NCBI GenBank assembly: GCA_024638265.1
Contig: JAHEKQ010000019.1
Span: 1 to 43,879, forward strand
DNA from: Flammeovirgaceae bacterium
GTDB lineage: Bacteria > Bacteroidota > Bacteroidia > Cytophagales > Cyclobacteriaceae
Length of the DNA: 43,879 nucleotides
Direction of reading: 5' to 3'
Each line of letters starts with the position of its first letter. Position 1 is the stretch's first letter. Shown here in pieces: positions 3,908-9,130 of this stretch. A program made the translations under genes and the position numbers. The notes below the pieces were generated by a model that saw nothing but the letters and a program-made list of their open reading frames with translations, had not been told where the DNA came from and searched no databases.

Positions 3908-3942
3908 GTTAGTTGTTAGTCGTTAGTTGTTAGTTCGTAGCT
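3908..3942. repeat. Heptamer tandem repeat GTTAGTY reaching a stop codon
   Basis: Four units (GTTAGTT, GTTAGTC, GTTAGTT, GTTAGTT) fill 3908-3935, and a fifth degenerate unit overlaps the stop codon of the amidohydrolase (3943-3941). Bases 3902-3919 reappear exactly in reverse complement at 12196-12213. Confidence 0.6.
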
Positions 3943-5548
3943 AATCCCTTTCGGCCTTCTGCTTCTTCACCATTTCCTCCACATCCTTAAGCAGCTGCTT
4001 GGCATCGAAGATGATCCCGTCCTTGATTGTATATTCAACGCCACCTACTCGTTCTACTTCACCGGTCTCGTCGTTGAGTTTGACCGCACCGGTTCCGTAG
4101 AGAACTTTGAAGTTCTCCAGGGGATTTTCGTCGACGATCAGCAAATCGGCCTTCAACCCGGGCCTGATGACACCGTACTCTATGGGCTTTCTTTTTGGAT
4201 AGAATATTTCCTCGGCGCCATGCATGGTGGCGGCCCTTACCACCTCAAGTGGATGAAAACCTGCTTCCTGCAATAATTCCAGTTCCAGGATGGTACCAAA
4301 CCCGTAAAGCTGGTAGATGAATCCTGAATCGCTGCCAACCGTGATCCTGCCCCCCTTGTTCTTATAATCCTGAAGGAACTCCATCCATTTCTGGTAGAAC
4401 TTCTTCCAGGCCACTTCGTCGTGGGTGGTCCAGTAGAACCAATAGGCGCCATGGCTCACCCGGCTGGGCTGGTAGAAGTCCATAAGACTGGGCAGTGTGT
4501 AGATCTCATGCCAATCGGCATTCCTTGCACGCATTACGTCCCTCCCGGCGGAATATATCGTCATGGTGGGATTGATAAAAAAATTAAGCTCCAGGAATTT
4601 ATCGAGCAGGGCATTCCATTCTTCACTACCCCTATCATGGATCAGATTCCATTGCCTGGCCACCTGCCCGAATCGGTGCTGTTCATCCTGGTAATTCATA
4701 TCGAGCGGGAAGGGCTGAACATCATAACCGTCGTATAGGGCCTCGAAAAGCCCATAATAGTGGGTCATGCCGGTCATTCCCAATTTTGCGGCATCCAGGG
4801 CATTCATTTGCGCCACACCCATCTGGTCGAGGTGGGCCGTTGAACCCATGCCCAGCTTATTAGCTTCGCTGATCAGGGCCCCCATGATCTCCGGACGGAA
4901 AGCCCCGAGCTTCAATCCATCCACTCCTTTTTTATGTGCATACTGCACCCATTCCCGGGCATCAGCAGGGGTGTTGATTCGTCTGCCATTCCACTCTTTC
5001 CCACTGCCGGGGCGCTGGAATGAAACGATTCTAGGGGCTGTTATCTCATTGGCAGCTGATCTCTTTTTCTCACTCAAGCTCCATTCCAGTGGACCGTCGG
5101 GAACTCCACGAACAGTGGTAATGCCATGCCCGAGCCAAAGTTTGTATACATATTCTGCTTCAGGAGCTTTTGGTACTCCGCCGGTGTGCACATGAAGGTC
5201 GACGATGCCGGGCATCACATACTTCCCATGAGCGTCAATTTCTTTAGTGGCATCTTTGGGCCGTCTTTCTTCATTTATGGGAAGTTTCGGGTAGCCCACT
5301 CTTCGAACCTGTACAATTTTATCGTTTTCCACTACAATATCCACAGGACCAATTGGAGGCGCACCGCTTCCATCAATCAGGGTGGCCCCCCGGATGATGA
5401 GTCGGTCAAACGGGCCTTCACCTTCTGCCCTGTCAGGGCCCGGTTTTACCTGGGCCACAGCGGCAACAACGGCGATGATCATAACGATGGCGAGGATTAT
5501 CCAATGAAGACGGGGACGGCGATGCATACGATAAAGGTTTTGGTACAT
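3941..5548 (-). CDS. Membrane-anchored metal-dependent amidohydrolase
   Basis: The 535-residue protein has a basic N-terminus and one hydrophobic segment (about residues 15-33), either an uncleaved anchor or a signal peptide. The amidohydrolase-superfamily barrel follows with a complete set of candidate metal ligands: HVH at residues 119-121, a lysine in GLKLG near 213 (candidate carboxylated lysine), His 239 in TAHLD, His 263 in MTHYYG and Asp 407 in GSDSG. The N- and C-terminal beta-sandwich (LIIRGATLIDG and GLKADLLIVDENPLENF) is typical of imidazolonepropionase/prolidase-like members. The substrate is probably a cyclic amide, dipeptide or similar; I cannot assign it. ATG 5548 is preferred to an in-frame TTG five codons upstream because that TTG directly abuts GAGGAG, leaving no spacing. 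Confidence 0.87.
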   Translation of the reverse strand: MYQNLYRMHRRPRLHWIILAIVMIIAVVAAVAQVKPGPDRAEGEGPFDRLIIRGATLIDGSGAPPIGPVDIVVENDKIVQVRRVGYPKLPINEERRPKDATKEIDAHGKYVMPGIVDLHVHTGGVPKAPEAEYVYKLWLGHGITTVRGVPDGPLEWSLSEKKRSAANEITAPRIVSFQRPGSGKEWNGRRINTPADAREWVQYAHKKGVDGLKLGAFRPEIMGALISEANKLGMGSTAHLDQMGVAQMNALDAAKLGMTGMTHYYGLFEALYDGYDVQPFPLDMNYQDEQHRFGQVARQWNLIHDRGSEEWNALLDKFLELNFFINPTMTIYSAGRDVMRARNADWHEIYTLPSLMDFYQPSRVSHGAYWFYWTTHDEVAWKKFYQKWMEFLQDYKNKGGRITVGSDSGFIYQLYGFGTILELELLQEAGFHPLEVVRAATMHGAEEIFYPKRKPIEYGVIRPGLKADLLIVDENPLENFKVLYGTGAVKLNDETGEVERVGGVEYTIKDGIIFDAKQLLKDVEEMVKKQKAERD

Positions 5549-5646
5549 CCTAAATCTAGTCAACTCCTCGGAAATCTCGAACTGAGTTTGCGATTATGTG
5601 ATCAATGAACTGAAGAATGGCCTACAACAGGTACCGTAGTATGAAG

Positions 5647-6798
5647 CTACACTTCCGACAACTGGTAAATCCCACAACCCGTTTTTTTCATTTCACTCAC
5701 TGTATCCTTGATCTCAAATTGGGTTATGTTGCCAAAGCTGCCATCGCAGAAAGGACAGACTTTCAAATCACCATCGGAATCAATGTAGAGGAATCGGCCA
5801 CCGGCACCGACACATCCCACCCTGTTTTGATGATAGCCATGGTATGTAATAATGGGGTATTTCCTCCCTTTTCGCGTAAAATTCATTTTTTCATAGAATT
5901 CTGACAGGACCTTCTTCTCTTCTTTGATTAATTCTACATCTTTTTCCTTGTATGCTCCTGCTGATCTGGGCTCCATAATCTGTATGAAGCCCACTCCCAA
6001 ATCAGCTGCCAGCTCTGCATATCGTTGCAGGTTCTCCTCTCCAAGAAACTCCCGAGTTACACAAAGTGAGAGCCCCGTGATAAGTCCATGTTTTACTGCT
6101 GACTTTGCTGTTCTGGCTGCCCAATCGAAAGAGCGGTCTTTACCCCGGAATACGTCATGTTTTTCTGCCTCGAAGTGATCAATACTGACCGTCATTCCCC
6201 TGATTCCCCATTCTGCCAGCTGCCTAACCTGTTCGTCGGTTACTTTGTATCCCGACGTGACTACCATAAAATCGGAACGATCTTTAAACCGCGTGACGAG
6301 CTCCCGAATGGTATCAAGTCTGAGCATGGGTTCGCCACCTCCCAATTGAACCTGGAAAACCGCGTTTTCCTGGAATTTCTCTACGGTCCTGTACAGGAGT
6401 TCGTTGGTCAAAACTTCATGCCCATTGAGACGGTCCCATTCATAGCAATGTTCGCAGTTCAATCCGCATTTTTTTGTGATGGCCAACAGCAGGATCTTCA
6501 ACTCTTTTGGTGGGTACTTCTTATAAATCCTGTTAAGCTCACTGATATAATAGTGGTCAAATATCTTCGAAGGGAAACCGGGAGTATTGAGGTCGTAGTA
6601 ATAATAGCCACCCGCTTTGGATAGTTTGAGGTTGTTGAAATCACCCATGAACTGCCTTCGGACCTTCTCCAGCTCTTGTACACCATTTTGTGCTTCTTCA
6701 GCATTACCAAAATAATCAAAGGCCAGGCGATGCTTGATCTTTCGGATCATGCGACTGACACGCAGCCGTTCCAATGGATTTGTGACCAGCTGTTTCAT
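5647..6798 (-). CDS. Radical SAM enzyme with C-terminal SPASM-like cysteine cluster
   Basis: The 383-residue protein has the radical SAM motif CGLNCEHC at residues 111-118, where three cysteines bind the 4Fe-4S cluster that cleaves S-adenosylmethionine. GGGEP (153-157) and the following strands fit the partial TIM barrel. C-terminal cysteines at 329, 348, 351 (CPFC) and 375 look like a SPASM/twitch domain binding a further iron-sulfur cluster, as in peptide-modifying maturases. About 100 residues precede the core and match nothing I recognise. It is the last gene of a three-gene operon; its ATG shares four bases (ATGA, 6798-6795) with the stop of the upstream lipoprotein gene, so the two are probably translationally coupled. 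The substrate is unknown; no short precursor-peptide gene is visible nearby. Confidence 0.88.
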   Translation of the reverse strand: MKQLVTNPLERLRVSRMIRKIKHRLAFDYFGNAEEAQNGVQELEKVRRQFMGDFNNLKLSKAGGYYYYDLNTPGFPSKIFDHYYISELNRIYKKYPPKELKILLLAITKKCGLNCEHCYEWDRLNGHEVLTNELLYRTVEKFQENAVFQVQLGGGEPMLRLDTIRELVTRFKDRSDFMVVTSGYKVTDEQVRQLAEWGIRGMTVSIDHFEAEKHDVFRGKDRSFDWAARTAKSAVKHGLITGLSLCVTREFLGEENLQRYAELAADLGVGFIQIMEPRSAGAYKEKDVELIKEEKKVLSEFYEKMNFTRKGRKYPIITYHGYHQNRVGCVGAGGRFLYIDSDGDLKVCPFCDGSFGNITQFEIKDTVSEMKKTGCGIYQLSEV

Positions 6799-8426
6799 TG
6801 GCTATTAGTCGCTATGGATTGCATAAACGCCTGATGATGCCGGAAAGAGAATTCTGAAAGGGCACCTGGCTTTTTGAAAGACTTCAGGTACAGGTAATCG
6901 GGTTTTCCCTCAAAGGATACTTCATTCCGGTAGTATCCACGGACACAAATAATAGCCGTTTGAAAGTTAACAGGATTGGCCTCGAAAGTGAGATCAACCC
7001 GGTCCCCCTGTTTCATTTCCTGAAAATATTGAGAATCATCAGCTCTTAGCATTTCAACATATTCAATTCCAGCGACGTCAATCACAGAGATCAATGGTGC
7101 CTGTGTGATGGTTATTTCCGGGCTTTGGGAAACATCGAGGACCGCTTCATCAATCTCCCAGAAATTAAACCCTGATTCGAGTTTGATCCTTATGTCGCCT
7201 TGTATTACCCCACTCAGATCTATGGGCATGATCATATCCTTATCTATAAGGGATCCGGGAACTTCAAAATAGTCGACATACTCCCACTTGTCCCCTTTTT
7301 CCAGGAATACCTTCAGCACTACGCCCTGGTCCAGCATCCACTCACGATGCTCACTGGCGGGAAGCTCAGCTTGTTTTGAACTGAATTCGGGATAGTAATC
7401 ACCAAAAAGCTTAACGAATTCTGTAAAGGTATAATCAAACCAACGCGTGTTTTTTGCATTAAGCACAAGTTTGGCCGTTTCTGCTCCTTTTGGAATGCTG
7501 AAATCCAAGACGGTACTGACCATACCCTTTGAGTCCGGGACTCCGTCAAATTGCAAGTACCGGGAATCATCTTCCTTTAGAATATTAACGTCCGATTCAT
7601 GTTCAGATACTATAGATACCGGGTAGTTTTCCTTCTTATAGGCAAACAATTCACCATGCTTATCCCGGTGCACCCTGTAGTCGGCCGGATGATCGATCAG
7701 TTCCAGCGATGTGTAATTTATGAATTCAGTTTCCATCTTCTCATTTCGAAGCTGAAGCCTGTAAACGTCACCATCCGGTCGGATTTTGCCCAGGGGTAAA
7801 TAGTCGGTTCTTTCCAGGCTTTGATATATCGCCCCGGGAAATACGCCACCCTTGAATTCATATTCCTCATCATTAAGTACATAGACTGAAGGGCAACTGC
7901 AGGCAATGGCGATAAAAATTCCGAAAGCTACTGCTGCCACTCCTACTGTTGGGCCGAGATAGGAAGCCACGGTAGCCCCAAGTGCCTCATCGTAAATCTC
8001 GATTTTTTCAATCCCGGCAAGGGGAATCTCTACCTCAGAGTCACTTGTGTTGATGGATTCAGGTATGTATACGTGAATCTCATTGGTGGGAAGCGAGGGT
8101 TTGTCCTGCTTTCTGATATACCGGTGTGTGGATTTCTTTTCTGGTTTTGATAACCTCTGCAGGTAATTGGCCTCCCTGATTCTGTCGAGTTCTTCCAAAG
8201 TGCCCTTAACTTTATTCTCATCGACAGAGATACCGGACAAGTGCCAGTATTTTTGTCCCTGGTGAATAATGACATAATCACCCGAGTTAACGGTTTTTGA
8301 GCTCACATACTGGCTGTTGATGTCTTTCACACGCCCGACTTTATAGAAATGGCAGGCATTGAGTTGTACAAGCATTAAGAGCAGCAGGAAAATTGCCAGC
8401 GATCGTCGTTTAGTTATTCTTTTCAT
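6795..8426 (-). CDS. Large lipoprotein with internal membrane segment, unknown function
   Basis: The 543-residue protein starts with a basic signal peptide and lipobox ending at Cys25 (QLNAC). An N-terminal domain of about 120 residues is followed by a hydrophobic glycine/alanine-rich stretch at 150-176, ending in CSC, and then a conserved-looking block (CPSVYVLNDEEYEFKGG and LERTDYLPL, about 178-213). The C-terminal 320 residues are predicted mostly beta and contain no motif I can name. It begins four bases after the barrel gene ends and overlaps the radical SAM gene by four bases, so the three are almost certainly one transcript. Cysteines 176 and 178 may be disulfide partners or targets of the radical SAM enzyme; that is speculation. 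Confidence 0.8.
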   Translation of the reverse strand: MKRITKRRSLAIFLLLLMLVQLNACHFYKVGRVKDINSQYVSSKTVNSGDYVIIHQGQKYWHLSGISVDENKVKGTLEELDRIREANYLQRLSKPEKKSTHRYIRKQDKPSLPTNEIHVYIPESINTSDSEVEIPLAGIEKIEIYDEALGATVASYLGPTVGVAAVAFGIFIAIACSCPSVYVLNDEEYEFKGGVFPGAIYQSLERTDYLPLGKIRPDGDVYRLQLRNEKMETEFINYTSLELIDHPADYRVHRDKHGELFAYKKENYPVSIVSEHESDVNILKEDDSRYLQFDGVPDSKGMVSTVLDFSIPKGAETAKLVLNAKNTRWFDYTFTEFVKLFGDYYPEFSSKQAELPASEHREWMLDQGVVLKVFLEKGDKWEYVDYFEVPGSLIDKDMIMPIDLSGVIQGDIRIKLESGFNFWEIDEAVLDVSQSPEITITQAPLISVIDVAGIEYVEMLRADDSQYFQEMKQGDRVDLTFEANPVNFQTAIICVRGYYRNEVSFEGKPDYLYLKSFKKPGALSEFSFRHHQAFMQSIATNSQ

Positions 8427-8429
8427 GGC

Positions 8430-8936
8430 TTAAAATCTAAATCCAATGTTAGCACCACCCGTAACGCGTGTGAACCTGAAACTATAAGAATTCTCAACCA
8501 CTTCCTTAAAATTTCCCAGTCCGACATAAGCTTCAAGAACTATATTGTCGCTCAGTTTGAAATAGTTGCCAAAATTCAGGCCGAAGCCATTAATTGTATA
8601 GGGAGTGGAATAGATATCATCGTTATCATTTCGTACTCGCGAATAAAAGATTCCGATGAAGGTATTTGATCTGAATTCCACATTGAAATCCCGATTAGTC
8701 TGAATTCGGTATTCCACCGAAAAACCATCCTCACCACCGTAATCGTACGGGCCGCTGATTCCCTTGATCCATGTTACTACCAACCAGTCTTCTCCCTGGG
8801 AGGTCTTAATTTGAAGATTGGGACGGAAAGAATTGGCCAGGAGCCAGGGTGTATTAACGGGGAAGATTCCCACGCTTTGTCCCTGTACAACCCACGAGGT
8901 TGCGACCAGGGACAGGATCAGTATGATTCGTACCAT
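8430..8936 (-). CDS. Small outer-membrane beta-barrel protein
   Basis: The 168-residue product begins with a Sec signal peptide ending near VVQGQ (about residue 20). The mature part alternates hydrophobic and polar residues in short strands and ends in GGANIGFRF, with the terminal phenylalanine expected for outer-membrane barrels. It resembles DUF3575-type small barrels, but I cannot confirm the family. The start at ATG 8936 is chosen because the longer frame up to 9038 adds 34 charged residues before an otherwise perfect signal peptide. It is the first gene of the barrel-lipoprotein-radical SAM operon. It may anchor or export the lipoprotein; that is inferred from position alone. Confidence 0.78.
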   Translation of the reverse strand: MVRIILILSLVATSWVVQGQSVGIFPVNTPWLLANSFRPNLQIKTSQGEDWLVVTWIKGISGPYDYGGEDGFSVEYRIQTNRDFNVEFRSNTFIGIFYSRVRNDNDDIYSTPYTINGFGLNFGNYFKLSDNIVLEAYVGLGNFKEVVENSYSFRFTRVTGGANIGFRF

Positions 8937-9130
8937 TTTCGTATGAAAAAGCTGAGAAATCTCGCAATTATTCCAGTGATATCCAATAGTTATTTTTTTC
9001 TCAGAAGGATCACAATCCGCAGAGCAGGATATAGGCAAAATGGCCCCATCTATGATTTAATTGAGGTCAAAATTTCAAGGAAGGATTTGAATTCCTATAA
9101 TTTGTTAAATTGTAGAAATCAAAACCCGGT

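Follow-up and report, generated by a model that had tools for sequence, protein, structure and literature searches.

The stretch of DNA analysed here, referred to below as the window, comprises 43,879 nucleotides of contig JAHEKQ010000019.1 from a Flammeovirgaceae bacterium. Our subject is a set of three genes on its minus strand, which encode a small outer-membrane barrel (8430-8936), a lipoprotein (6795-8426) and a radical S-adenosylmethionine (SAM) enzyme (5647-6798). The barrel and lipoprotein genes are separated by 3 bases (8427-8429), and the lipoprotein and enzyme genes overlap by 4 bases (6795-6798). This arrangement, including the length of the lipoprotein, agrees with the original prediction, which was made from the window's sequence and proposed the three genes as an envelope modification system. 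The features are as follows.

5647-6798, minus strand: radical SAM enzyme of 383 residues, twitch-type by its cysteine pattern (PF04055 at 69 bits; AlphaFold mean pLDDT 92.7; nearest solved fold SkfB)
5674-5814, minus strand: predicted twitch (auxiliary cluster) region of the enzyme, C329-x13-G343-x4-C348-x2-C351 ... C375 (alignment and cysteine counts)
6445-6468, minus strand: radical SAM cluster motif CxxxCxxC of the enzyme, residues 111-118 (C111, C115 and C118), kept in 12 of 12 lipoprotein-linked homologues found with hidden Markov models (HMMs), the window's included
6795-8426, minus strand: lipoprotein of 543 residues, the conserved partner (in 78 of 80 radical SAM loci; no Pfam or NCBIfam family; AlphaFold mean pLDDT 87.8)
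7122-7643, minus strand: galactose-binding-like jelly roll of the lipoprotein, residues 262-435 (VIA-align Z 9 to 11)
7533-7901, minus strand: SCP module of the lipoprotein (residues 176-298), in which C178-P179 is invariant whether or not the locus has the enzyme
7902-7964, minus strand: internal hydrophobic stretch of the lipoprotein, residues 155-175 (from sequence; the model is of low confidence at 156-174)
8343-8348, minus strand: aromatic pair F27-Y28, close behind the lipobox cysteine, a candidate modification site (aromatic-pair counts)
8352-8426, minus strand: residues 1-25 of the lipoprotein, the signal peptide with the lipobox cysteine (lipobox LNAC, C25)
8430-8936, minus strand: small outer-membrane barrel, an optional partner (signal peptide and C-terminal phenylalanine in the sequence)

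The enzyme, the lipoprotein and the barrel

The enzyme belongs to the radical SAM superfamily, as its 69 bits against PF04055 exceed the curated Pfam cut-off of 29.5. The Pfam SPASM model, in contrast, gives 16.2 bits, under its own cut-off of 21.5. After the core, only C329, C348, C351 and C375 are conserved, while C246 lies within it; among the HMM-found homologues C329 and C348 are kept in 12/12, C351 in 10/12 and C375 in 11/12. When compared with what we take to be the full set of SPASM auxiliary-cluster cysteines, and with what we assume to be the motif form of the truncated SPASM (twitch) pattern, these residues class the enzyme as a predicted twitch protein rather than a SPASM protein with two auxiliary clusters, and a single auxiliary cluster is expected. 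As to orthology with a known enzyme of unrelated role, a possibility raised at the outset, the enzyme reaches no NCBIfam cut-off. Among solved structures, the best VIA-align match to its model is SkfB (Z 26.4, root-mean-square deviation 3.3 over 291 residues), followed by SuiB (23.2), BlsE (22.9) and viperins (about 22). SkfB and SuiB, the two leading matches, are peptide maturases, and the match to SkfB, a twitch enzyme, supports the twitch assignment.

The partner is a bacterial lipoprotein, as judged from a type II signal peptide with a lipobox cysteine. This cysteine, C25, is kept in all 87 enzyme-linked lipoproteins and in all 10 from loci without the enzyme; the only other conserved cysteine is C178. 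The sequence C176-S-C178-P-S180 directly follows the hydrophobic stretch (residues about 155-175). By a crude criterion (a 17-mer with a mean Kyte-Doolittle value of 1.2 or more), such a stretch precedes C178 in 86 of the 87 enzyme-linked lipoproteins, the exception being L115, and in L158, L172 and L183 it is followed by a Gly/Pro/Ser-rich linker. The C178-P179 module is also found in five large proteins from four other regions, of which the two scanned against Pfam are a UnbV_ASPIC/TPR protein (L208) and a subtilase (L206). The lipoprotein and the barrel fall below every Pfam and NCBIfam cut-off, and a family scan of 65 lipoproteins of the enzyme-linked type, the window's included, returned no family matching more than one member. 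For the lipoprotein, a PDB sequence search gave no match better than E 0.2, and a search of viral_contigs gave none at all; a tblastn search of plasmids was likewise empty. The jelly roll, which contains inserted helices in the model, aligns with CBM6, CBM35, BcsB, Eph ligand-binding and other domains. It is the only part of the lipoprotein placed by structure; Foldseek with the whole protein gave TM-scores below 0.2 by query length among the 50 matches listed.

The barrel has 168 residues when read from the ATG at 8936, and its longest frame starts from a TTG at 9038. It has a weak DUF3575 match (E 0.15), and its C-terminal 53 residues weakly resemble DG-type barrels (hhalign probability 28). 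An amidohydrolase gene (3941-5563) follows the enzyme gene on the same strand, and an acyl-CoA-ligase-like gene (PF00501; 9131-10777) diverges from the operon.

Conservation of the lipoprotein-enzyme pair

To place the three genes among their relatives, a set of loci from named genomes was obtained by a pattern scan of genome_contigs, which gave 190 stretches, 164 of them encoding relatives; the best 80, about half of these relatives, were kept. The scan patterns were drawn from five lipoprotein-linked enzymes and contained cysteines, so cysteine invariance in the 80-locus set partly reflects how the set was assembled, a bias from which the HMM searches of genomes are free. The lipoprotein profile matches in 78 of the 80 loci, and the other two (L114 and L129) begin inside the enzyme gene at a contig edge. 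Among the 78 paired loci the lipoprotein gene comes first in 74, the enzyme gene comes first in 3, and the two lie on opposite strands in 1; in 54 of the 74, the stop-to-stop frame of the enzyme opens ahead of the lipoprotein stop. Five of the 80 loci lie on metagenome-assembled contigs titled as other phyla, namely Zixiibacteriota (L130), Cloacimonadota (L154, L167 and L181) and Delongbacteria (L190), two (L115 and L179) are unassigned, and the rest carry names of Bacteroidota. The pair is present in isolates of Flavobacterium, Gelidibacter, Maribacter and Hymenobacter. Residue counts throughout omit L135 (which duplicates L041), the split locus L143 and the truncated locus L153.

In a search of 59 genomes, made up of the window's own and those of its relatives, the lipoprotein query had matches in 8 (counting the window's), and close matches to the enzyme (E below 1e-50) occur in 6 (the window's, G040, G048, G031, G033 and G029). 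The two genes are neighbours in G040, G048 and G033, and in G031 they lie on opposite strands with two genes between. The relative in G029 (L044:8993-10222) has lost both the CxxxCxxC motif and the auxiliary cysteines, and the lipoprotein query had no match in its genome; about 500 bases upstream of this relative is a gene for prolipoprotein diacylglyceryl transferase. In a sample of 395 genomes from the phylum, matches were obtained in 34 with the lipoprotein profile (E 1e-8) and in 13 with the enzyme profile (E 1e-30), so the pair is not common. All nine enzyme matches better than 1e-70, the window's included, lie within 0.5 kb of a lipoprotein gene, at spacings from overlap to 423 bases, with a predicted open reading frame (ORF) of 165 residues between the two genes in G428. 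The remaining four matches (G078, G229, G097 and G314; E 1e-34 to 1e-42) form a distant group, which is without C351 and has other neighbours, for example ketoacyl synthase III (KAS III) in L098 and a GMC oxidoreductase in L100. G078 and G229 gave no lipoprotein match, and G097 and G314 carry a lipoprotein of the type without the enzyme on another contig.

Given the 78/80 loci and the 9/9 close matches among the 395 genomes, the arrangement is far beyond chance, and we are confident that the lipoprotein and the enzyme form a dedicated pair that matches no curated family. The opposite outcome, in which most relatives of the enzyme would be without the lipoprotein, had been put forward as a test of the original prediction and is not what we find. 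Its three-gene unit, however, is reduced to this pair: the DG-type barrel family occurs in 14 of the 80 loci, and although other barrel-like genes lie upstream in some, no barrel family is common to the loci, so the barrel was rejected as a core member. Two further observations concern individual loci. In L130 (3018-5330), two more radical SAM genes, which share 70% identity, lie upstream of the barrel, lipoprotein and enzyme genes, and in L154 (4794-5102) the start of the lipoprotein is repeated as a short, incomplete copy downstream of the enzyme gene.

Lipoproteins of this superfamily also occur without the enzyme. In a tree of 99 lipoproteins, 10 without the enzyme (clade B) are split from the 87 that are enzyme-linked (clade A) with SH-aLRT support of 100, the ten having been chosen as carriers of a small second lipoprotein; two more without the enzyme, L045 (near a contig end) and L109, are nested inside clade A. 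Twenty-six loci without the enzyme were examined, and the large lipoprotein is found in 25 and an enzyme match in none; L205, fetched as such a locus, gave no lipoprotein match. The small second lipoprotein (about 170-220 residues) occurs in 18 of these 25, of which 3 are weak (E 1e-3 to 1e-5) and 8 are independent of its profile, which was built from the other 10, and its family has matches in none of the 80 enzyme loci. It carries an RFPQGI-like motif and lies directly downstream of the large lipoprotein in L046, L047, L102-L108, L110 and eight of L191-L204; the three that were scanned match no Pfam family.

The lipoprotein as a candidate substrate

We tentatively propose that the enzyme modifies the lipoprotein before its export, so that the two would be an enzyme-substrate pair, a reading to which we grant somewhat less than an even chance. 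It starts from four direct results, which are the gene pairing, the predicted fold, the cysteine pattern and the absence of another conserved precursor from the loci; the lipoprotein as substrate, the site, the chemistry and the localisation are what we infer from them. The lipoprotein is favoured because it is the sole conserved partner in the loci, because the genes overlap, and because the enzyme has a peptide-maturase fold. It is further favoured because no precursor was found: among 681 ORFs of 20-90 residues, within 1.5 kb and outside longer ORFs, no family occurs in more than 2 of 91 loci (82 of which gave any ORF), in agreement with the original prediction, which noted no short precursor gene in the window. 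In addition, the G029 enzyme, the one close relative found without the lipoprotein, has lost all of its cluster cysteines, which argues in the same direction.

In the proposed mechanism, the lipoprotein would be made with an ordinary lipoprotein signal peptide, and the enzyme, possibly located at the inner membrane through its N-terminal helix, would bind the pre-lipoprotein before or during export. The 5'-deoxyadenosyl radical and the auxiliary Fe-S cluster would then bring about a side-chain modification or a crosslink, after which the lipoprotein would undergo export and lipidation and reach the outer membrane, where in some species a small barrel would lie next to it. The aromatic pair after the lipidated cysteine is one candidate for the site, with the signal peptide as a possible leader.

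The aromatic pair, counted as two adjacent aromatic residues at +1 to +6 after the lipobox cysteine, is present in 78 of the 87 enzyme-linked lipoproteins. None of 59 other lipoprotein-like ORFs taken from the fetched loci has it, and among 21 relatives without the enzyme in which a lipobox was located it occurs in 3 (L045, L200 and L201); four further relatives without the enzyme had no located lipobox and stand outside the count. L109, which has no enzyme match, is without the pair, and its enzyme-linked sisters, L096 and L097, each show just one tyrosine. It is conceivable, if unlikely, that the full-length precursor is treated in the manner of a ribosomally synthesized and post-translationally modified peptide (RiPP), with the signal peptide as leader and the aromatic pair crosslinked or radically modified before lipidation; the product would be an outer-membrane lipoprotein whose membrane-proximal end had been chemically remodelled. 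Other sites fared less well. Cysteines 176 and 178, suggested previously, were rejected, since position 176 is serine in 67/87 and cysteine in 10/87 enzyme-linked lipoproteins, C178 is equally invariant in 10/10 lipoproteins without the enzyme in the locus, and the module occurs in other architectures. H246, W329 and other clade-specific residues were weakened as candidates, as L045 and L109 keep H246 and W329 without the enzyme, and these two residues therefore look structural.

Several observations weigh against the lipoprotein as substrate. In the fold list BlsE and the viperins, which are small-molecule enzymes, stand close behind SkfB. Residues 1-74 of the enzyme, modelled as two helices and a hairpin, lie outside the SkfB alignment, so that the match to SkfB gives no support for a leader-binding domain; the first 56 residues are barely covered by the listed VIA-align matches, which excludes nothing. 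Nine of the 87 enzyme-linked lipoproteins are without the aromatic pair and L045 keeps it, and the pair may be structural, because a predicted strand (residues 28-33) starts there. The retention of H246 and W329 by L109 and L045 within clade A counts in the same sense, and the contrast between lipoproteins with and without the enzyme follows clades and is confounded with phylogeny. Finally, lipid-type enzymes are encoded in some of the enzyme loci.

These neighbours bear on the strongest alternative, in which the enzyme makes or alters a lipid-like small molecule, the lipoprotein (joined by the barrel in some species) serves as its carrier, sensor or exporter, and diiron hydroxylases, desaturases and KAS III enzymes provide tailoring or supply steps in some lineages. 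We regard this as possible but on the whole doubtful, a rating that reflects the nearby lipid-type genes and the enrichment of the hydroxylase in pair-bearing genomes. Of 149 neighbours listed, 65 of 67 first- or second-place downstream or between-gene neighbours and 46 of 48 upstream neighbours were scanned, and FA_hydroxylase (PF04116) accounts for 19 and FA_desaturase for 5 of the 65. Over the 80 enzyme loci the hydroxylase family occurs in 20, KAS III in 6 and the desaturase in 4, with KAS III and the hydroxylase together in five (L112, L115, L117, L143 and L183) in varying gene orders, whereas none of the three, nor the DG-type barrel, is found in the 26 loci without the enzyme. KAS III also follows the distant enzyme relative in L098, and at E 1e-50 the hydroxylase is present in 24 of the 395 genomes (4 of 9 that bear the pair vs 20 of 386 others, a contrast that relatedness confounds and that also weighs against the lipoprotein as substrate). 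The resemblance of the jelly roll to carbohydrate-binding modules and the divergent acyl-CoA-ligase-like gene of the window would fit this alternative as well. The lipid-type enzymes are, however, missing from most loci (the hydroxylase from 60/80, KAS III from 74/80 and the desaturase from 76/80), so that the hydroxylase and KAS III were rejected as obligate partners, and all five loci titled as other phyla are without them, some on short contigs. At E 1e-50 the hydroxylase is absent from the matches in the window's genome, and the KAS III model at E 1e-40 matched none of the 395 genomes, the nine pair-bearers included, which is a weak negative as the sample holds no genome known to carry KAS III. 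The N-terminal helix of the enzyme bears on this alternative in both directions: most of 38 homologues have a hydrophobic one (median best 19-mer 1.17 on the Kyte-Doolittle scale), in favour of it, but the window's own enzyme does not (-0.24), and owing to this value membrane attachment is weakly supported for the latter. We interpret the lipid-type genes either as accessory functions or as pointing to a lipid-like product. In L143 (2442-4028) the hydroxylase and the N-terminal half of the lipoprotein share one open frame, which is a fusion or an assembly error; as the remaining lipoprotein part lies in a separate ORF, it was not used as fusion evidence.

It is rather improbable that the enzyme acts on a third partner, the barrel or another envelope protein, with the lipoprotein as its scaffold or chaperone. 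A barrel does lie directly upstream in a subset of loci, the DG-type in 14/80, and the 46 scanned upstream neighbours include OMP_b-brl (3), OMP_b-brl_2 (2) and DUF3575 (2), counts that may overlap, yet the loci share no barrel family; substrates encoded elsewhere in the genome were not searched for. Least probable of all is that shared regulation or inheritance links the two genes without direct biochemical coupling: lipoproteins of the same superfamily do occur without the enzyme in many genomes, but the linkage survives changed gene order (3 enzyme-first and 1 opposite-strand of the 78, and also L042, L096 and L097) and holds in contigs titled as other phyla.

Relation to known systems

The nearest named idea to this pair is TIGR04133 (rSAM_w_lipo) of NCBIfam, which we take to be a radical SAM/SPASM family whose short name implies a partner lipoprotein. 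The window's enzyme is not a member, as it scores 62.2 bits against a cut-off of 425, and 1.2e-19 is the best E-value among the 38 homologues. One TIGR04133 locus (G216) was examined, and none of its ORFs of at least 80 residues matches the lipoprotein profile. What the UnbV_ASPIC/TPR protein and the subtilase have in common with the lipoprotein is the stretch of residues about 176-298 together with some of the C-terminal region, and their overall architectures are unlike it. Within a limited, open-licence set of titles and abstract openings, we found no report that fits such a system.

Among characterized enzymes, one report describes SkfB as a radical SAM core with a twitch domain that binds one auxiliary cluster (PMC6231123), the arrangement predicted here. 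SkfB differs in having an N-terminal RiPP recognition element, where the first 74 residues of the window's enzyme are unaligned, and in acting on a short peptide, whereas the sole conserved partner found here is a lipoprotein of about 550 residues. By analogy, the closest precedent for cytoplasmic radical SAM modification of a protein that acts outside the cytoplasm is QhpD, which is reported to crosslink QhpC in the cytoplasm under leader guidance, both being encoded in one operon (PMC7876137). In both cases a radical SAM enzyme shares an operon with a protein, which is the substrate for QhpD and the proposed substrate here. Tagged QhpC has a mass of about 15 kDa and carries three thioether crosslinks, in contrast to a lipoprotein of 543 residues with only two conserved cysteines. 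If the lipoprotein is the substrate, a large envelope lipoprotein would recurrently undergo radical modification in Bacteroidota and, judging from contig titles, in related phyla. Outer-membrane lipoproteins would then join short peptides and a few exported enzymes as targets of radical SAM maturation.

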